Shown: positions 7,257-64,000 of the stretch, piece by piece | How positions within the stretch are numbered: position 1 is the stretch's first letter | How the letters are laid out: every line of letters starts with the position of its first letter | Source of the DNA: Gammaproteobacteria bacterium | GTDB taxonomy: Bacteria > Pseudomonadota > Gammaproteobacteria > Pseudomonadales > Halieaceae | Assembly (NCBI GenBank): GCA_024644535.1 | Contig: JAHEKX010000003.1 | Coordinates: 124,001 to 188,000, forward strand | DNA length: 64,000 nucleotides | Direction: 5' to 3' | The notes under the pieces: model-generated | The model's database searches: none | What the model was told of the DNA's origin: nothing | What the model saw: the letters and a program-made list of their open reading frames with translations, nothing else | Translations under genes and position numbers: made by a program

Positions 7257-8339
7257 ATGAGTGATGCAGAAAACGTTCACTACCAAGGCTTGAGCTATCC
7301 TTTCGGGCGCACAGCGCCTGAAAACAATGGATGGATCCGCGAGGTCGCCCCCGGGGTTCATTGGTTGCGCTTTGAGCTTCCCATGGCATTAAACCATATT
7401 AACTTGTGGCTGCTGGAAGACAATGATGGCTGGACCATTGTAGATACCTGCATGAACATGCCATCAGGCCGCCAACAATGGGAAGAACTATTCACCACCG
7501 TATTACAAAACAAACCCGTTACCCGAGTCATTGCAACCCACCTACACCCCGACCACGTGGGTCTCGCAGGCTGGCTTTGCGAGCGTTTTAATTGCGAACT
7601 TTGGATGTCGCGCACCGATTACACCATGTGTCGCATGTTGGTATCTGACACCGGACGAGCGGCTCCCGAGGCAGGTATCCGCTTTTATCACCGTGCCGGT
7701 TTCAACGAGACGCAGCTCAACAGTTACCGCGAGCGATTTGGGGGATTTGGCTCAGTCGTGTATCAGCTACCAGACTCCTACCGCCGCCTCGTGGACGGTG
7801 ATCACCTAGAAATCAACGGCAACTACTGGCAGATGGTTGTGGGGAAAGGCCACTCACCAGAACATATTTCGCTGTATTGCCCCGCTCTGAAATGTTTAAT
7901 TTCTGGCGACCAGGTGCTGCCCAGAATCACCTCTAATGTCAGCGTGTTTCCAACAGAACCCGAAGGCAATCCGCTGCGCGAATGGCTGCTGTCTAACGCT
8001 AGGATACGAGAACTCTTGCCCGAGGACCTGTTGGTATTGCCCGCTCATGGCAACCCGTTCTATGGCCTGCATAAACGTTTGACCCAACTAATCGATGGTC
8101 ACGAACGCGACCTCGATGCCCTTTACCAGCACCTTAGCGAACCTAGGCGCGCAATCGATTGTTTTGAAGTCTTATTCCAGCGTGTGATTGGCGACGATAT
8201 AGTGATGATGGCCACAGGCGAGAGCATTGCGCACTTGAACTGTCTAAGAGATCGCCGCCGTATTAAACGCTTTTTAGATGAAGACGGGGTTTACTGGTAC
8301 CACGCCTTACCCGAAAGCCGGCAAGTTCGTCTGCCCTGA
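7257..8339 (+). CDS. Metallo-beta-lactamase-fold hydrolase
   Basis: 360 residues. The metal-binding motif HLHPDHVG is near residue 95, followed by GHSPEHIS, SGDQVLP and PAHGNPF, the usual MBL metal ligands. The C-terminal third looks like the winged-helix domain found in LACTB2-like members. ATG 7257 is preceded by GAGG at 7244-7247; an upstream TTG at 7227 has no such support. The family hydrolyses thioesters, lactones, glutathione adducts or RNA; substrate is not readable here. The acyl-CoA dehydrogenase follows 75 bases downstream on the same strand, which hints at an acyl-thioester substrate, but that is inference. Confidence 0.88.
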   Translation: MSDAENVHYQGLSYPFGRTAPENNGWIREVAPGVHWLRFELPMALNHINLWLLEDNDGWTIVDTCMNMPSGRQQWEELFTTVLQNKPVTRVIATHLHPDHVGLAGWLCERFNCELWMSRTDYTMCRMLVSDTGRAAPEAGIRFYHRAGFNETQLNSYRERFGGFGSVVYQLPDSYRRLVDGDHLEINGNYWQMVVGKGHSPEHISLYCPALKCLISGDQVLPRITSNVSVFPTEPEGNPLREWLLSNARIRELLPEDLLVLPAHGNPFYGLHKRLTQLIDGHERDLDALYQHLSEPRRAIDCFEVLFQRVIGDDIVMMATGESIAHLNCLRDRRRIKRFLDEDGVYWYHALPESRQVRLP

Positions 8340-56148: not shown

Positions 56149-56313
56149 ACAACCCTGCCTTATCAACGCCGGTTACTGTAGCCTAAAACTAAAACAGGTG
56201 CACATCAGCTTTCATTGAACCCTTTCGGGCATTGGCCTCGTATCGCACACAAATCAGTTATAGTATAGATTAAATCGGTGTCCGCCCTGATGAACTGGAA
56301 TACGAAGAAAACC

Positions 56314-57555
56314 ATGAACACGCGCATACCTATTATCGCCAGCCTAATAATGTTCAGTGCAGCGCTCTCCGCGCTGGCGCTGGCGCAGCCCTCTGCCGAT
56401 TTAGACATGACTGACAGCGAGGAAGCCATTACCTTAGATACCAGCGAACTAGATGGTTACCAAAATGCGATCACAATCCTTGAGGAAACGGGTGGCGCCT
56501 ACGCCTTGGGGCTGTCGGAAGAATTGTTAGGGCTAGGCTTAGCGCTGCAGCGCTCGGGTCGCCACACGCAAGCGGTCGAGGTTTTCCAGCGCGGCACACA
56601 CATCACTCGCATCAACCAAGGACTGTATAGCGAACAACAAATCCCTTTTTTAAAAGGGTCAATAAATAGCTTAGCGGCACTGCAGGATATTCGTGCGGCA
56701 GACGACCAACAAGATTACCTAATACGGGTTGAAGAGCGCGTATTGCAAGCAGGGCCCGAACGAATATCAGCCTGGCTGTCATATGCTCATTGGCAGCGCT
56801 CTCAGTTTTTAAAAGATCCCGTCGATACGCAGTTTCCCAGGTTGATCCGAATGCTAGACGCTTATCAAAGCGCTCTAAATGAACTCAAAACGTTTGAAGA
56901 TGAACGACAGCTCGTCGCCGATTCACTGTGGGGCCTAATTCAAACCTACTTTTTAGTGACGTCGTTCGACGACGAAAAAGACGCCTCACCCTTTGAACGG
57001 CGGAGCAATTTTGACGAGAATGCACCGCAAGAGAATTTTTATGAATTTTACCGCGACGCCGACCGAGGCGCCCCGCAAGCCATCGAGCTGCTGGTTAATC
57101 TGCTCTCGGAACTACACGGCATCACTAGTTTCGAAGCGTTTCACGCCAGCATCCAAATCGCCGACTGGCATCTTTGGCGCGGCGAACGCAGAACCGCAAG
57201 CGAACTGTATCGCCAGATCGATCAGGTCATTGGGGAACTCGAAGACGAAACACAAATCCAAGAGTTACGCGAGCGATTGTTTAATCGCATTACTTTGCTA
57301 CCGGACATCAGTGGTATCCGCTTGTTGCCACCCGCTGTTCCAGCCGACGAAGGCAACGTGACTCTTAGCTTTGACGTGACCGATCGCGGCAGTGTGCGCA
57401 AGGTTAAACGCGTCGAAGTTGAGGATGGTTTTGATGGCTTGGCCGGCAAGTTTATACGCTACTTACGACACGCTGTATTTCGGCCTCAAGTGATCGAGGG
57501 TGCTACTGCAACCCGAGAAGGAGTGGAGCAATCTTATGTCTTACAAGCTGACTAA
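56314..57555 (+). CDS. Exported repeat protein with TonB-C-like C-terminus (first gene of envelope cluster)
   Basis: 413 residues from ATG 56314; in-frame ATGs at 56278 and 56290 are possible. A signal peptide (TRIPIIASLIMFSAALSALALAQP) is followed by a helical, TPR-like region (ILEETGGAYALGLSEELLGLGLALQRSGRHTQA and later helices). The last ~80 residues, VTLSFDVTDRGSVRKVKRVE through FRPQVIEG, match the beta-alpha-beta pattern of TonB C-terminal domains, but there is no membrane anchor with a Pro-rich linker as in TonB. Secreted to the periplasm. Its end overlaps the next gene by 20 bases. Function unknown. Confidence 0.8.
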   Translation: MNTRIPIIASLIMFSAALSALALAQPSADLDMTDSEEAITLDTSELDGYQNAITILEETGGAYALGLSEELLGLGLALQRSGRHTQAVEVFQRGTHITRINQGLYSEQQIPFLKGSINSLAALQDIRAADDQQDYLIRVEERVLQAGPERISAWLSYAHWQRSQFLKDPVDTQFPRLIRMLDAYQSALNELKTFEDERQLVADSLWGLIQTYFLVTSFDDEKDASPFERRSNFDENAPQENFYEFYRDADRGAPQAIELLVNLLSELHGITSFEAFHASIQIADWHLWRGERRTASELYRQIDQVIGELEDETQIQELRERLFNRITLLPDISGIRLLPPAVPADEGNVTLSFDVTDRGSVRKVKRVEVEDGFDGLAGKFIRYLRHAVFRPQVIEGATATREGVEQSYVLQAD

Positions 57556-58582
57556 CGTGGTCATAGCCGTAAGCCTTGCAGCGCTTACCTCCGCTTGCTC
57601 TACGACCAGCACATCAACATCGACCTCGACGCCCTCGGTGTCACTCCCGCTGCCTAGCTCAAGCTCAAGCTCAAGCTCAAGTTCTAGCTCTAGCTCCAGT
57701 GGCAGTCCGAGCCTTCCCAGCGGTGGCATACCAAGCCCAAGCTCGTCGCAACCCTCTGGCTCTAGTGGCTCGACCAGCACAACATCAACGGCCGGAACCA
57801 GCAGCTCAGAAGCCGGAACTGAAACCAGCGCCAATAATGGCTCTGAAACGGCTTCGATTCCGCCGCCACCCAAAAATGGTAATGGCGACAGTACAAACGA
57901 CGCGCCCACCAACCAAAGCGGCGAACCGGGGTTTGTCGACACCGGCGACCAAAGCAGCGAAGCCCTGCCTACTTTGGTGGATGAAGAGCCTGTGAGTAGC
58001 GCACGCAAAGCCCCACTCGAGATAGGCCAAGCCAGTGGATCCAGCGAGCAAACAAGCGACAATCAAGGTAATGCCGGCGATCAGACGGCCCGTGCCGAGG
58101 CACCAGGTGATTACGCCAGTAATACCGGTGACGACATGAACCAACAAGGGCTACCCCAAACCTCAGGTCCCATGACGCAAGGCGAAAAAATTGCTGTTCT
58201 TGATGCCGAACTCGAGCGCGCCACGGGCGTTTTTGATCAGATTATCTTAGATGCACAATCGCAGCAGCGTGAATCAGACACAGAATCGAACACTCAGTAC
58301 CCGGCTGGCGCGGAAACTGCCAGCACCGACAACAATGAAACCTACGGTAGAATACCGGGCGGCATGGGCAGCCAAGGTGGCGGTGGCGGCATGCGCACCG
58401 GCGAGGTCAGCGCGGCCAACACCACAGCTAAATATCCACCCCCCAACGACATACCCAGCGGCAACGACGATGACGTTATCGCACGCCAGCTTCGCGAAGC
58501 AGCCATGCGCGAACCCGACCCTACAGTACGGGAAAAGCTCTGGAACGAATACCGCAAGTACAAAGGACTTAATCAAGGATGA
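57536..58582 (+). CDS. Serine-rich lipoprotein of envelope cluster
   Basis: 348 residues. Lipoprotein signal TNVVIAVSLAALTSACS with lipobox near residue 20. The next ~200 residues are low-complexity Ser/Thr/Pro/Gly, including a run of 15 serines at residues 41-55 encoded by a hexanucleotide repeat, and act as a flexible tether. Two conserved-looking helical parts follow: EKIAVLDAELERATGVFDQIILDA and the C-terminal VIARQLREAAMREPDPTVRE. Start overlaps the previous gene by 20 bases with GGAGTGGAG upstream. No family recognised. Confidence 0.78.
   Translation: MSYKLTNVVIAVSLAALTSACSTTSTSTSTSTPSVSLPLPSSSSSSSSSSSSSSSGSPSLPSGGIPSPSSSQPSGSSGSTSTTSTAGTSSSEAGTETSANNGSETASIPPPPKNGNGDSTNDAPTNQSGEPGFVDTGDQSSEALPTLVDEEPVSSARKAPLEIGQASGSSEQTSDNQGNAGDQTARAEAPGDYASNTGDDMNQQGLPQTSGPMTQGEKIAVLDAELERATGVFDQIILDAQSQQRESDTESNTQYPAGAETASTDNNETYGRIPGGMGSQGGGGGMRTGEVSAANTTAKYPPPNDIPSGNDDDVIARQLREAAMREPDPTVREKLWNEYRKYKGLNQG
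57656..57700 (+). repeat. In-frame AGCTCA hexanucleotide repeat encoding polyserine
   Basis: Four exact AGC-TCA units (57656-57679) followed by degenerate AGT-TCT, AGC-TCT, AGC-TCC, AGT serine codons to 57700. It codes for 15 consecutive serines. The 6-base unit keeps frame if the number of copies changes, so slippage would alter tether length and not inactivate the gene. Confidence 0.95.
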
Positions 58583-59793
58583 ACATCTTTAAAAAGGTTT
58601 TAGGCCTTGTTATTTTGGCGATAGTCAGTCTCGGCGGCTGTGTATCACAAACTGTCACAACCACCAAAATTCCAGCGATCCAAACGCCAGCAGTAGCGCT
58701 CCCTAACGAGCAACTCTTAGATGTCAGCATCGCCATATTCGACCCTGGTTTAGAGGTCGAGTCGGACGGCGACATCCCGATCTTCCCCGAGGTCCGGCAA
58801 TCGGAAGCTCGGTATATGCCGCAAGTTTTAATGAGTGCTATGCAAGACAGCGGTGCCTGGGGAGCTGTGCGAGTCGTGCCCTCCGACGACCAGCTCACCG
58901 ACTTAATGATCAGCGGCAAAATACTGCGCTCTGATGGCAAAAACTTAGCGCTTGAAATTACCGCGGTGGACGCAACCAACCGCTATTGGATCGATCACCG
59001 TGTTTATAAAGCCGAGGCATCTCGCTACGCCTACTCAACAGCGACCAGAAGCACCCACGATGCCTTTCAAGCCGTGTATAACCGCATCGCCAATGACCTG
59101 TTACAGCACCACTACAAGCTCGAATCCAAAGCTTTGGTGCGAGTCAGACAAGTCGCCGAAATACGCTTCGCCGAGCGCTTTGCAAACCAAGCATTTGAAA
59201 ACTATGTCACCTACGAAGACGGCCGATACCGACTACGAAAACTACCTGCTGAAGGCGACCCTATGCTTGATCGCGTCCGAAAAATACGTGCCCGAGACCA
59301 TTTGTATGTCGACACCTTACAAAGCTACTACGAGCAATTCGGGGGGCAAATGCAGGCGCCCTATCAGGAGTGGCGCAAACTAACATATGAAGAAGCCATG
59401 GCCTTAGAGGAAGTCCGAGCAGAAGCCGCCAGCGATTTATTAATTGGGGGCTTATCGGTGCTAGCGGGTATTTACGCGGCAGCTGAAGGCAACGATGCAG
59501 TAACACGAACGGCCGGGAACGTCGCGATTATGGGCGGCGCCTACATGGTCAAAAGCGGTTTGGATAAGCGCAATGAAGCGGCAATTCATGTCGAAGCACT
59601 TGAAGAACTTGGCGCATCTCTAGAGGCTGAAATCACCCCACAGGTAATACAGCTCGATGACCAAACAATTACCCTAACCGGGAACGTGCAGGATCAATAC
59701 GCGCAATGGCGGTCCCTGCTAGACGACATCTACGAGTCTGAAATTGGCAGCCTGGATCAAACCTTGGAATCGCGTGAGGACGACGCTCACTGA
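58579..59793 (+). CDS. Uncharacterised lipoprotein of envelope cluster
   Basis: 404 residues. Signal FKKVLGLVILAIVSLGGC with lipobox LGGC. The N-terminal ~170 residues have the alternating pattern of lipoproteins like GNA1162/CsgG-type (VSIAIFDPGLEVES; QVLMSAMQDSGAWGAVRVVP; DLMISGKILRSDGKNLALEI), a guess on pattern only. A central Gly/Ala-rich segment (DLLIGGLSVLAGIYAAAEGN) is hydrophobic enough to touch a membrane. Overlaps the upstream gene by ATGA and the downstream gene by one base. Probably faces the periplasm from the outer membrane. Confidence 0.78.
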   Translation: MNIFKKVLGLVILAIVSLGGCVSQTVTTTKIPAIQTPAVALPNEQLLDVSIAIFDPGLEVESDGDIPIFPEVRQSEARYMPQVLMSAMQDSGAWGAVRVVPSDDQLTDLMISGKILRSDGKNLALEITAVDATNRYWIDHRVYKAEASRYAYSTATRSTHDAFQAVYNRIANDLLQHHYKLESKALVRVRQVAEIRFAERFANQAFENYVTYEDGRYRLRKLPAEGDPMLDRVRKIRARDHLYVDTLQSYYEQFGGQMQAPYQEWRKLTYEEAMALEEVRAEAASDLLIGGLSVLAGIYAAAEGNDAVTRTAGNVAIMGGAYMVKSGLDKRNEAAIHVEALEELGASLEAEITPQVIQLDDQTITLTGNVQDQYAQWRSLLDDIYESEIGSLDQTLESREDDAH

Positions 59794-61301
59794 TGCAAAA
59801 ACGCATTGAACCCGCCGAGTTTAAACCTGCGCGAGGTAGCAGTGACACCAAAATCCAGGGAGGTAACAAACCCTGGGGATTGGTCGTTGCTGCTTTACTG
59901 GTCCTGACCGCTATTTACGGCGTTTTTATTTGGCTCCCCGGACAAGTTGAACCAACAATTGCGACCACCGTTCAAAACGATCGAATTTCGGATACAACAC
60001 AAAGACCGAGCCCCGCGAGCTCTCAGGCGAGTGCGCAGAGCTCAGAACTTTCTCCCTTTGAGCAAGCCCAGCTAGCAAAAGCGCGCAAAGAAGCACAAGA
60101 CATCCTCGAGCAAATACTGTTGCAGCAAGCTTTTCTGCAAGAAGCAAAAGTCGAGTGGTGGGGGCAAGTGCCCTATGAGCAGGCCTTAACCAATGCAAAA
60201 GAAGGCGACGAACACTACCGAAACAGAGATTTTGCAAGCGCCATTGCAGGCTACTCAAAGGCGCTGGAAAAACTTACTGAGCTAAGCAACAGCATACCTG
60301 CTCGCGCTGACCTGGCCCAGATTCAAACCAGAGAAGCTATTGAAGTCTTCGACCAGCAAGTGGCACAAAAACAACTGTCCCTGCTAGAAGCCTTAGCGCC
60401 CAACCACGATAGCATTGCCACATTGACCGAGCGTATCGATGTGTTACCGCAGGTTGCACAGCTGTTTGAAAGCGCCCGAAAATCACAGAGCCAAACCGAT
60501 TGGAATGACGCCAAAACAGCGATTGATGCGGCGGCCAAAGCCGATCCCAAGCATCAAGCTGTGAATATTGTTCAAGAAGAAATCCAAGTGGCCTGGCAAC
60601 AAGCGATGTTTGAGAGAACATTAGGGCAAGCCTACGCAGCTATTGCAGATAATGAGTTCGGCATCGCTGCACGTTTAATCCAAGAAGCCAGCGGATATAA
60701 GGGTTTAACCCAAGCGCTAGACCAAGCCAGAGCAACACTAACGCTTGCCGAAACAACTGCGACTCTACGCCAACTTGAACAAGAAGCAAGTGCCGCAATC
60801 GAGCAAGAAGATTGGCAAGGCGTCATCAATTTGTACCAAGAAGCACTGAGCGTCGACCCGAGCATTCAGTTCGCGCAACAAGGGCTTCCGAAGGCGCAAA
60901 GCCGTCTGCAACTTGACGAAGAGATCGACACTGTTTTGAAGGCGCCTGAACAACTGCAAGACCCTGCAGTTACAGCGGCCGCACAGCGACTGCTCGATCA
61001 GGCCCACAACATTACGCCTGCAGGCCCATCGCTGACACTGCAAATTCAAACGCTGCACAATCTAATTGAACAAGCCAATCGTATTGTGAGCGTTACGATA
61101 GAATCGGATGGCTTAACAGACCTGGTGTTAATTCGTCACAGCAACATCGGTAGCACACAGCGATATCAAACGCGGCTTCGTCCGGGCAAGTACACCGTTC
61201 GAGGCACGCGTGTGGGCTACCGCGATATACTCGTTAATTTTGAAGTCAAACCCGAAGACTCTAATCTTCGAGTGTTTGCCGCCTGCAGCGAGCAAATTTA
61301 A
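59793..61301 (+). CDS. Single-pass membrane protein with TPR/coiled-coil periplasmic domain and PEGA-like end
   Basis: 502 residues. A ~28-residue cytoplasmic N-terminus (QKRIEPAEFKP) precedes one membrane helix (WGLVVAALLVLTAIYGVFIW). The long periplasmic part is Gln/Ala/Glu-rich and helical with TPR-like pairs (GDEHYRNRDFASAIAGYSKALEKL; IEQEDWQGVINLYQEALSVDP). The last ~60 residues are beta-rich and PEGA-like (LRPGKYTVRGTRVGYRD). Translational coupling is clear: it overlaps both neighbours by one base (TGATG, TAATG). It shares the N-terminal motif with the next gene product. No family recognised. Confidence 0.8.
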   Translation: MQKRIEPAEFKPARGSSDTKIQGGNKPWGLVVAALLVLTAIYGVFIWLPGQVEPTIATTVQNDRISDTTQRPSPASSQASAQSSELSPFEQAQLAKARKEAQDILEQILLQQAFLQEAKVEWWGQVPYEQALTNAKEGDEHYRNRDFASAIAGYSKALEKLTELSNSIPARADLAQIQTREAIEVFDQQVAQKQLSLLEALAPNHDSIATLTERIDVLPQVAQLFESARKSQSQTDWNDAKTAIDAAAKADPKHQAVNIVQEEIQVAWQQAMFERTLGQAYAAIADNEFGIAARLIQEASGYKGLTQALDQARATLTLAETTATLRQLEQEASAAIEQEDWQGVINLYQEALSVDPSIQFAQQGLPKAQSRLQLDEEIDTVLKAPEQLQDPAVTAAAQRLLDQAHNITPAGPSLTLQIQTLHNLIEQANRIVSVTIESDGLTDLVLIRHSNIGSTQRYQTRLRPGKYTVRGTRVGYRDILVNFEVKPEDSNLRVFAACSEQI

Positions 61302-63349
61302 TGACGCAAAAACGCAATTTAAAGCCCACTGACTTCCAACCTGTAGCGCAGGACACCTCTGCGAACGGCCGACTGGTTCGTCCGTCGTCAGCAAAACTCG
61401 GATTGGCTCTACTCGGAGTGGTTTTTTTTGCAGCTTTGGCCTTTGTGTTTACCGCCAAAAGTTTGACGGTCATCGTCAAACAAACCCAAGAAGCTAAGAT
61501 CAAAATTGAGGGCGGGTTCTCAGTGAACTTTGCTGGCCGGTTGTTGTTGTTACCCGGCGAATACTCCGTTTCAGTTGCAGCAGCGGGTTTTCAAGCTGCT
61601 AAAATCCCCTACACGGCAACGCGCGACGACAGTCAGCAGCTGCAGGTCGAACTGAAACCTCTACCCGGAAAGATCACGTTCAATCTCAACCCAATTAATG
61701 CCACAGTGCAGATAAATGGCGAGTCAGTGCCCGCAACAACGTTGGAATTGGAACCGGGCGCCTACGAAACTCTTGTTCAAGCCGACCGCCATCAAGATAA
61801 AAGCGTAAGGCTTGAGGTCGAGGGCAAAGGCATAACGCAAGAATTTGCTATTACTTTAGATCCGAATTGGGCCGCCATCACAATTCATTCTGAGCCGACA
61901 AGCGCCGATGTTTATGTTAACAATATCCGCGTTGGCACTACGCCCCTAAGCACTGATATTGTAGCGGGGCAACATGAAGTGCGCCTTGAAAAACAAAATT
62001 ATCAGCCAGCAACACGACGAATAGAAATTAACGCCGGAGCCGACCAGATCTTACCCAACATTGTGCTAAAAGAAGCCAACGGTCAGTTCAAAATCGAATC
62101 CGACCCGAGCGCCGTCACCGTTATGCTCGATGATCGCTATAAAGGTCTTACACCGATTTCGTTAACACTTGAGCCTGAGCAAAAGCACAAAATCACGCTA
62201 ACAAAACCAGGATTCCAAACCCTCGAGGTCACACGAAGACTTCCGGCGGGTGGCTCTACACAAGAAATCTTTACCCTGAAACCAATGCTTGGCCAAGTCA
62301 ACTTTGCTATCAGCCCTGCCGATGCCGTAATTAGCGCTAATGGTCGCCAAATAGGACATGGATCGAGCACCTTCGATCTACCACAAGTCGAGCAAAAAGT
62401 GATTATCAGCAAGCCGGGATACGAACCTTTTACCACGGTCATAACCCCCAGAAACGGCATCGCGCAAACGGTATCTGCGACCTTGATGACTGAAGCAGCG
62501 GCGCGCAAAGCTCGGCTTCGCCCCATTGTCAAAGACCCGACGGGAGGAGAGTTAGTGCTGATCGATCCTACCCAGCAGAAGTCCTTCACAATGGGGAGCT
62601 CAAGGCGAGACTCGGGGCGTCGTGCCAACGAAACCGAGAGAAGCGTGCAGCTGACCCGCGCGTTTTACATGGCCAAACAAGAAACCACCAACGCACAGTT
62701 CCGATTATTCGAGGCTTCCCATGATTCCGGGGTAGCCGCGGGTAATTCCTTAAACCGCCAAACGCAACCAGCTGTGCAAGTCAGCTGGCAACAAGCGGCC
62801 CAGTTTTGTAACTGGCTCAGTCGTCAAGAAGGTCTACCTCTTTTTTACAAAGAGCAAAGCGGTATTATCGTGGGCTTTAACCTCGAAGCCTCAGGCTACC
62901 GACTTCCCAGCGAAGCCGAGTGGGAATTTGTGACCCGCGTGACACCAACCGGCGAGCGCAAATTCCTTTGGGGCGAAATATTTCCACCTGTCAATAACAC
63001 TGAAAATTTTGCCGATGCCAGCAGCGCTCACGTCACCGGCCGCATCGTAGCCAACTATCAAGACGGCTATGTAGCCACCGCTCCGGTAGGTAGCTTTAAT
63101 TCGGGACCTTATGGCGTATTTGACCTAGCAGGCAACGTGGCAGAATGGGCGCATGATGTTTACGAGATCCGGACACCGTCGGAGCAAACAGAAACCAACC
63201 CTCTGGGCAAACAAGTGGGCGACAACTATGTCATAAAAGGCGCTAGCTGGTCACTTTCAAAATTGACCGAGCTACGGTTAAGCTATCGAGATTATGGTGC
63301 ACGAGGGCGAGACGATGTGGGATTTAGGGTGGCGCGGTATGCAGAGTAA
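61301..63349 (+). CDS. Membrane-anchored PEGA-repeat protein with degenerate SUMF1/FGE-like domain
   Basis: 682 residues. N-terminus QKRNLKPTDFQP, one membrane helix (LGLALLGVVFFAALAFVF) near residues 33-52, then about five PEGA-like repeats (for example SADVYVNNIRVGTTPLS; VMLDDRYKGLTPISL), and from about residue 412 a SUMF1/FGE-like domain: TMGSSRRD, GYRLPSEAEWEFVTR, FDLAGNVAEWAHDV, DDVGFRVARY. In true formylglycine-generating enzymes two cysteines sit in the segment after V.KGGSY; here it reads IKGASWSLSKLTELRLSYR without cysteine. The domain therefore looks non-catalytic. Periplasmic. Starts in the overlapping TAATG with the previous gene. Confidence 0.85.
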   Translation: MTQKRNLKPTDFQPVAQDTSANGRLVRPSSAKLGLALLGVVFFAALAFVFTAKSLTVIVKQTQEAKIKIEGGFSVNFAGRLLLLPGEYSVSVAAAGFQAAKIPYTATRDDSQQLQVELKPLPGKITFNLNPINATVQINGESVPATTLELEPGAYETLVQADRHQDKSVRLEVEGKGITQEFAITLDPNWAAITIHSEPTSADVYVNNIRVGTTPLSTDIVAGQHEVRLEKQNYQPATRRIEINAGADQILPNIVLKEANGQFKIESDPSAVTVMLDDRYKGLTPISLTLEPEQKHKITLTKPGFQTLEVTRRLPAGGSTQEIFTLKPMLGQVNFAISPADAVISANGRQIGHGSSTFDLPQVEQKVIISKPGYEPFTTVITPRNGIAQTVSATLMTEAAARKARLRPIVKDPTGGELVLIDPTQQKSFTMGSSRRDSGRRANETERSVQLTRAFYMAKQETTNAQFRLFEASHDSGVAAGNSLNRQTQPAVQVSWQQAAQFCNWLSRQEGLPLFYKEQSGIIVGFNLEASGYRLPSEAEWEFVTRVTPTGERKFLWGEIFPPVNNTENFADASSAHVTGRIVANYQDGYVATAPVGSFNSGPYGVFDLAGNVAEWAHDVYEIRTPSEQTETNPLGKQVGDNYVIKGASWSLSKLTELRLSYRDYGARGRDDVGFRVARYAE

Positions 63350-63623
63350 GCTCTGTCGTTTGCTCGCTTATGGAATCGCAGTCACTGCCTTAGGCGCAAA
63401 CGCTGTGGTCGCGCAAACGGTCGCCACACAGACGGCAGACTCGGCGCCGAGAAAGACTGAAGCGCCGGCTGTTACCGATGTAACAGCCAAAACCAAGCCG
63501 CCAGAACCAGAAGTCGGATCCACACCGGCCCAGGCTTCGCCCAGCACAAAAACCGTACTAGACTACGAAGCATCCGAACAGATCTCAGAAGATTTCTCGG
63601 TTTCGTTCCCAGTAGACATATAG
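63339..63623 (+). CDS. Small exported Pro/Thr-rich protein of envelope cluster
   Basis: 94 residues from ATG 63339, within the last 11 bases of the PEGA gene. Signal peptide SKLCRLLAYGIAVTALGANAVVA. The mature part is Thr/Pro/Lys/Glu-rich and disordered in appearance (RKTEAPAVTDVTAKTKPPEPE) with a short hydrophobic end (FSVSFPVDI). An ATG at 63315 with GAGGGCGA is the alternative start. No family recognised; it fits as a periplasmic linker or small partner. Confidence 0.65.
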   Translation: MQSKLCRLLAYGIAVTALGANAVVAQTVATQTADSAPRKTEAPAVTDVTAKTKPPEPEVGSTPAQASPSTKTVLDYEASEQISEDFSVSFPVDI

Positions 63624-63631
63624 GACTCGAC

Positions 63632-64000
63632 ATGCACTGGCTTACCCGTAACGAATTTTTGTTTCAGCTTGCATCCCTACTAGTTGCCGTCATTCTTGTG
63701 CACGGCGTGTATGTAGGACTGGTCAGACCCAGCGCCGATGCCCACCTAGCTGCGCAAGCGGCGCTGCAGGCTGCCAGTGGAGACTTCACCCCAACGCGCA
63801 GTCTGTATGTGGTCATTCGAGATTATGAACAAGAAGCCTGCTTTATTTTGTTGTTATGGGCCTTAGCGATTATGGGGTTCAAACTTCAACGCAACCTTGC
63901 CGAGCGGGCCTTGACCCAAAAAGGGCTAATTGCAATTCCCGAGGGTACCAGCGTGTTGCCCAACGATGCTCGCGCCTACAGCCGCCCCTTAGAAGCTTTA
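63632..64000 (+). CDS. Probable MotA/TolQ/ExbB-type proton-channel subunit, 5' part
   Basis: The gene begins at ATG 63632 and runs off the window; 123 residues are visible. It opens MHWLTRNEFLFQLASLLVAVILVHGVYVG, a membrane helix, then a periplasmic loop with YVVIRDYEQEACFILLLWALAIMG, a second helix, and a cytoplasmic ..IPEGTSVLPNDARAYSR. From memory this pattern (a long-loop N-terminus, DYEQ, LWALAIMG, ..LP.DAR.Y.R) belongs to large MotA/TolQ/ExbB-family proteins annotated in marine gammaproteobacteria. The channel core itself is beyond the edge, so this is tentative. 8 bases after the previous stop. Confidence 0.5.
   Translation, partial: MHWLTRNEFLFQLASLLVAVILVHGVYVGLVRPSADAHLAAQAALQAASGDFTPTRSLYVVIRDYEQEACFILLLWALAIMGFKLQRNLAERALTQKGLIAIPEGTSVLPNDARAYSRPLEAL

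Follow-up and report, generated by a model that had tools for sequence, protein, structure and literature searches.

What does the run of overlapping envelope genes at the end of this stretch build? The window analysed here comprises 64,000 nucleotides, positions 124001-188000 of contig C23 (JAHEKX010000003.1), from a genome of 2.49 Mb in 28 contigs. A first, sequence-only reading had described the run as a seven-gene operon of unknown function, possibly a single machine with a TolQ/ExbB-like last gene. We found that these genes open a block of 13, numbered g1 to g13 below, which probably builds a proton-driven motor spanning the cell envelope. On balance, we think it likely that this motor is of the 5:2 type, with a heterodimer of vWA proteins as its axle, and that it acts on a PEGA/FGE-like hub and on outer-membrane lipoproteins.

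The seven plus-strand open reading frames were found where they had been reported, and their overlaps of 20, 4, 1, 1 and 11 bases and the following 8-base gap were correct. The size of the block was wrong, as the ends of the window and of the contig had cut off the remainder. The full g7 gene (L002:9633-10436, corresponding to 63632-64435 in window numbering) encodes 267 amino acids. After a 3-base gap behind g8, g9 starts just short of the end of contig C23, and with the corresponding protein of a relative (L033) as the query, it was traced to a terminus of contig C13 of this genome. Exactly 121 bases are shared between the last part of C23 and the beginning of C13 read on its reverse strand. 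C13 carries g9 to g13, on the minus strand of L115. The join is safe because relatives show the same order unbroken on single contigs.

The conservation of the block was analysed in relatives. Near-relative loci were obtained by scanning genome contigs with g7, and the best 80 of 349 relatives were used, the close relatives thus being chosen by g7. The names among these 80 loci were mostly Halieaceae bacterium, Haliea, Halioglobus, Parahaliea, Luminiphilus or Gammaproteobacteria bacterium, with one Lysobacterales. All 13 genes were present in one order and on one strand in 37 of the 41 loci of at least 20.3 kb; three of the remaining four were without only g6, and one was without g13. With 37 of 41 long loci agreeing on the order, the gene set lies far beyond chance. 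At wider range, g3 was detected in 22 of 97 genera of the order (43 of 194 genomes). A search of the class with g7 (E 1e-25) gave 31 of 369 genomes, from 23 of 272 genera, and one of the phylum with g10 (E 1e-10) gave 16 of 398 genomes, 13 of which belong to one family outside the class. Twenty of these class and phylum loci were fetched (15 of the 31 g7 matches and 5 of the 16 g10 matches). In 19 of them g2, g3, g4, g5, g7, g9 and g10 occurred together, as they did in all eight loci fetched around main g3 matches (L194-L201). These seven genes are the core of the block, because they recur together in these loci. In the 20 loci g8 was detected in 13, and g1 was not found or lay elsewhere in distant loci; no g1, g8 or g11-g13 was present in the fetched stretches of L179, L180, L182 and L184, and no g1 or g8 in L183, where the contig ends after g10. 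In L176, g7 was placed after g10. The earlier expectation that the genes would be conserved together elsewhere was therefore borne out by both the near and the distant loci.

Additional copies of block genes were also observed. Two loci, L192 (9730-17340) and L193, carry a second, diverged block with the order g3-g4-g5-small gene-g7-g9-g10, in which no g8 or g2 was detected, and both genomes also have the main block. In six further genomes (L186-L191), a second g3 copy was found with no other block genes in the stretch, the contig of L190 ending directly behind it. In L187 and L189 this paralogue lies near a gene that we take to be related to rRNA methyltransferases.

The assignment of a motor starts from g7, which matched MotA_ExbB in Pfam (1.2e-15). 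Residues Thr189 and Thr222, presumably equivalent to the pore threonines of ExbB and TolQ, were kept in 31 of 31 rows of an alignment of the fetched loci together with the window's genome (n = 31 for g7, n = 30 each for g9 and g10). The prediction of a TolQ/ExbB-like last gene thus held at the level of the MotA/TolQ/ExbB family. By contrast, the ExbD/TolR and OmpA genes expected downstream were not there; ExbD/TolR (PF02472), looked for in the window's own genome, is absent from the block, and two membrane-anchored vWA-type proteins, g9 and g10, stand in this place instead. All four other MotA/ExbB genes of this genome cluster with ExbD, whereas g7 is without one. Three of them (C23:2878, C16:14212 and C27:100498) directly adjoin their ExbD partners (C23:2391, C16:13742 and C27:100060), and the fourth, C27:101060, located beyond C27:100498, is separated from ExbD by about 640 bases. 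Another ExbD lies at C27:99665, and the region C27:99665-101416 forms one cluster holding two MotA_ExbB and two ExbD matches, which we take to be perhaps a TonB2- or Agl-like system. In a PADLOC scan that had g9-g13 outside its range, g7 scored 13.8 bits against ZorA of the Zorya defence system (E 0.0054).

In g9 of the relative L043, VWA_2 was detected above the cut-off (1.7e-7), and both g9 and g10 of this locus gave vWA and coiled-coil matches and no OmpA family (Pfam, E up to 1). The DxSxS motif of the metal ion-dependent adhesion site (MIDAS) was present in 30/30 rows of g9 and 30/30 rows of g10. An Asp in the membrane helix was likewise in frame in every row of both proteins (30/30 and 30/30), and we take it to be the counterpart of the proton site of ExbD, TolR and MotB. 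Such a correspondence is stated for the vWA proteins described in PMC12204202. The two genes are adjacent, each retrieves the N-terminus of the other when used as a query, and both were present in 19 of the 20 class and phylum loci. The 29 lipobox-pattern matches in g9 sit on the membrane helix and were not counted as lipidation.

A paper of 2025 (PMC12204202, Mol Biol Evol) describes TolQ-like proteins that occur with heterologous pairs of vWA proteins bearing a transpore helix, and without TolR or ExbD. On the basis of synteny and AlphaFold 3 models, it proposes that these act as force transducers driven by protons, their function being unknown. The motor part of the operon was therefore not wholly unknown, since a TolQ-like protein with a vWA pair and no TolR/ExbD had already been described in silico. 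The block resembles the second vWA family of that paper in its TolQ-like gene adjoining a heterologous vWA pair, in lacking TolR/ExbD, and in its membrane-helix Asp and pore Thr, a likeness of gene arrangement and motif residues drawn from the published description. The vWA neighbours without ExbD, the heterologous pair, and the conserved Asp and Thr suggest that the block is a TolQ plus paired-vWA system. In the main text of PMC12204202, the words PEGA, SUMF1 and sulfatase do not occur, and therefore the hub is not described in that text. No paper describing the whole operon was found in the open-licence literature, preprints not included. For the motor put forward in 2025, the block supplies a list of parts, the seven-gene core, and the comparison of loci separates likely accessory genes from it. 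What vWA axles move becomes testable in culturable marine bacteria, for example Luminiphilus syltensis and Haliea salexigens, in which the block is present (L092 and L076).

We next consider the candidate hub, g4 and g5. The SUMF1/PEGA assignment made earlier for g5 was confirmed by Pfam matches to PEGA (1.9e-39) and FGE-sulfatase (2.7e-38), and the description of g4 and g5 as single-pass proteins agreed with one N-terminal membrane segment in each, as seen by a hydropathy scan of a single relative (L033). No lipobox was found in g5 (0/54). A Cys pair, which we take to be the catalytic pair of FGE, is present in the FGE-like proteins of L261, L263 and L264 from the same class (13 tails compared). 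Unlike the sulfatase-maturing enzyme, g5 is without this pair, its C-terminal part having no Cys; its Cys503, within the FGE-like domain, was conserved in 64/70 rows, and no conserved Cys was found elsewhere. As the pair is absent, catalysis by this domain is very improbable.

The PorKLMN/GldKLMN loci of the type IX secretion system (T9SS) likewise combine, in one operon, an FGE-like domain lacking the catalytic pair with a proton-driven motor. According to PMC12421860, PorK has an FGE-like fold that was repurposed: an enzymatic role is unlikely, and the protein forms the hub of a ring moved by PorLM. GldK carries outer-membrane proteins via disulfides (PMC12421860, PMC12635249). The block might then be an analogue of T9SS and gliding machinery, in which a ring or track of FGE-like hubs is made to rotate by the motor, so that surface proteins are exported or moved. 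We regard this analogue as unlikely. The g5 protein looks like an inner-membrane-anchored PEGA protein rather than a lipoprotein, and neither an outer-membrane barrel nor a translocon was recognised among the products of the block. A special homology of g5 to GldK was rejected: g5 scored 105 bits against a cut-off of 350, no better than ten FGE-family controls (76-138 bits, three of them above g5). The controls were 10 of 13 FGE-family proteins, those of L271, L279 and L283 being left out (the frames of the last two looked wrong). A disulfide between g4 and g5, by analogy with GldK-SprF, was also not supported. The Cys in the C-terminal tail of g4 was conserved in 65/70 rows; both Cys residues were present in 59 rows, 6 rows were without that of g5, 5 without that of g4, and 0/70 without both. 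As no row is without both, there is no sign that these cysteines pair together.

The two lipoproteins proposed in the sequence-only reading, g2 and g3, carried the crude lipobox pattern in 48/52 and 53/54 relatives, respectively, and the same pattern was found in g11 (51/54), g12 (40/54) and g13 (34/50). Lipoproteins in which the residue after the lipobox Cys is not Asp are usually sorted to the outer membrane. This residue was never Asp in the lipobox matches of these five proteins, which points to their being outer-membrane-bound. Among 68 sequences of g2, the residues kept at 90% or more lay mainly within the last ~50, a pattern that would suit an outer-membrane tether with a docking helix. 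In 61 sequences of g6, all such residues lay within the last 15; P91 and D93 were kept in 61/61 rows while the remainder varies freely, and the tail looks like a docking peptide. That g6 is secreted agreed with a signal peptide, read by eye only. For g1, called TPR/TonB-C-like before, the signal peptide was seen by eye, but the best TPR (0.0011) and TonB_C (0.079) matches were both below the Pfam cut-offs, and this assignment stays weak. No Pfam family held for g2, g3, g6, g8, g11 or g12 (g2 and g6 searched as single proteins). For g3, g11 and g12 no Pfam match recurred among the members, the best single one being found in 1/35 g3 members (5.4e-4), and the best PDB profile matches were weak for g3 (E 0.035), g11 (E 0.14) and g12 (E 0.94). 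No credible mutual similarity of g3, g11 and g12 was found past the signal region; the g3-g12 alignment, given 81.5% probability, looks spurious after the lipobox.

The last gene of the block raises another possibility. In L043, g13 matched M48 peptidase (1.4e-33); it lies within the block in 40 of the 41 long relatives' loci and has the lipobox pattern noted above. Together with g13 and the lipoproteins g11 and g12, the machine might serve outer-membrane assembly or quality control, acting on protein or lipopolysaccharide assembly. This appears quite unlikely, as g11-g13 are not beside the core in L169, L172, L176, L177, L179, L180, L182 and L184 (elsewhere in these genomes was not searched). 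L178 and L183, in which the contig ends just after g10, were excluded from this count.

For g8, comparison of 40 members with Pfam gave nothing consistent, and a PDB profile search gave nothing below E 0.049. We had presumed from its sequence pattern that it is an actin/Hsp70-like pseudo-ATPase, and the searches gave no support. The g8 profile did not match GspL or PilM, in a comparison without power, as the GspL-PilM positive control also failed (2.2%). No signal peptide or membrane segment was seen by eye in the g8 alignment, and therefore the protein may be cytoplasmic. A sensor or regulator could be imagined on this basis, in which a low-flux proton gate is coupled to vWA, PEGA and FGE parts that bind a ligand or the cell wall and signal to g8; the MIDAS motifs kept in both vWA-type proteins would suit such binding. 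We consider it very unlikely. The presence of g8 in only 13/20 class and phylum loci indicates that the core seems to work without it, and the residues for proton transfer are retained, as they are in relatives that generate force.

In the proton-driven 5:2 motors that have been well studied, the axle is of the ExbD, TolR, MotB or GldM type. In the model that we favour, which is drawn from sequence and synteny, g7 would assemble into a TolQ/ExbB-like pentameric stator, and the helices of g9 and g10 would fill its pore as a heterodimeric axle replacing TolR/ExbD, with an Asp near the start of the single membrane segment of each. In the periplasm, the turning or pulling would be done by their coiled-coil and vWA domains. 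The TPR and PEGA-like protein g4 and g5, with its PEGA stalk and probably inactive FGE-like domain, would form a periplasmic hub anchored in the inner membrane; g2, whose sequence includes a long stretch of low complexity and a conserved helix at the C-terminus, would be a handle in the outer membrane, as would g3; and g1, g6, g8 and g11-g13 would be accessory. Proton flow across the inner membrane would thereby be converted to force on outer-membrane-anchored proteins, in principle as in Tol-Pal or PorLM-PorKN. That its job is outer-membrane organisation, or the positioning of lipoproteins or adhesins, is a tentative suggestion and somewhat doubtful; the job may also be secretion or surface motility. 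Equally speculative is the view of the block as a distinct trans-envelope machine of Pseudomonadota, in which the pair of vWA proteins would serve as axle and gripper at once, turning or pulling on a PEGA/FGE hub in the inner membrane, and an inactive FGE fold was recruited to a proton motor independently of T9SS and gliding.

Several observations weigh against the motor model, including the negative results for the GldK homology of g5 and the g4-g5 disulfide described above. The g7 protein reached 28.4 bits against the TolQ equivalog (cut-off 221), was likewise far off the cut-off for ExbB, and its profile matched no PDB chain at E 0.01. VWA_2 in g10 of L043 was below the cut-off (0.088), and g9 and g10 are tied to g7 by synteny only. 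In L175 (genome G404, near 8300), g7 was found without any core gene within 20 kb. In L182-L184, which are from another class, the Asp of g9 lies in an open frame with no preceding ATG, GTG or TTG, and the possible starts there are only CTG or an ATT/ATC codon; inclusion of this Asp there would require a less common start codon, for example CTG, or reflects an error. In addition, no phenotype of the operon was found reported in the literature.

The block was also compared with other known motors. In Tol-Pal, a TolQ-type stator passes force to outer-membrane lipoproteins, and the block would be alike in this respect, but it is without TolR/ExbD and its g7 is far from TolQ by score. The flagellar MotAB stator differs in its MotB partner with an OmpA-like peptidoglycan-binding domain, in the place of which g9 and g10 give vWA and coiled-coil matches. 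The Agl-Glt core also combines a TolQ-like motor with TPR proteins and, according to PMC3169522, forms a core of unknown function in gammaproteobacteria. However, as described there, two ExbD/TolR proteins and one FHA/TonB protein belong to that system, whereas the block has no ExbD and no FHA match in g1-g8. By the tests made, these sequence comparisons indicate that the block is not Tol-Pal, T9SS, MotAB or Agl-Glt. The idea of a single machine was thus strengthened by the channel gene and the joint conservation, but it had to be changed, the block being larger and a vWA pair standing where ExbD and OmpA had been expected.

The coordinates of the 13 genes are collected in Table 1.

Table 1. 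Genes of the block, in window numbering for g1-g8 and in L115 numbering for g9-g13
Gene	Product	Position	Strand	Remarks
g1	Secreted protein	56314..57555	+	Signal peptide by eye; weak TPR; sub-threshold TonB_C-like C-terminus; probably accessory
g2	Ser/Gly/Pro-rich lipoprotein	57536..58582	+	Conservation concentrated in last ~40 residues; core
g3	Lipoprotein, 404 aa	58579..59793	+	Without Pfam family; core
g4	Inner-membrane-anchored periplasmic protein	59793..61301	+	Weak TPR; sub-threshold PEGA-like C-terminal domain; core
g5	Inner-membrane-anchored PEGA/FGE-like protein	61301..63349	+	Four PEGA matches; C-terminal FGE-like domain; core
g6	Small secreted protein	63339..63623	+	By eye; conserved mainly in C-terminal tail
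g7	MotA/TolQ/ExbB proton-channel protein	63632..64000	+	Cut by window end; core
g8		64432-65655	+	4-base overlap with g7
g9	Membrane-anchored vWA-type protein	L115 13730-14821	minus	Core
g10	Membrane-anchored vWA-type protein	L115 12732-13739	minus	True start probably inside; core
g11	Lipoprotein	L115 12083-12757	minus	
g12	Lipoprotein	L115 11415-12134	minus	
g13	M48 protease	L115 9989-11464	minus	

A mobile element was considered and rejected: a plasmid search with g7 gave matches in 3 of 72,556 records, and no match spanned 80% of g7 (phage records were not searched). A promoter scan of 56160-57600 gave 0 promoter-like sites where 1.2 were expected. On both strands of L115, 7 promoter-like sites (3.9 expected, standard deviation 2.1) and 9 terminator-like sites (6.2 expected, standard deviation 2.7) were detected.

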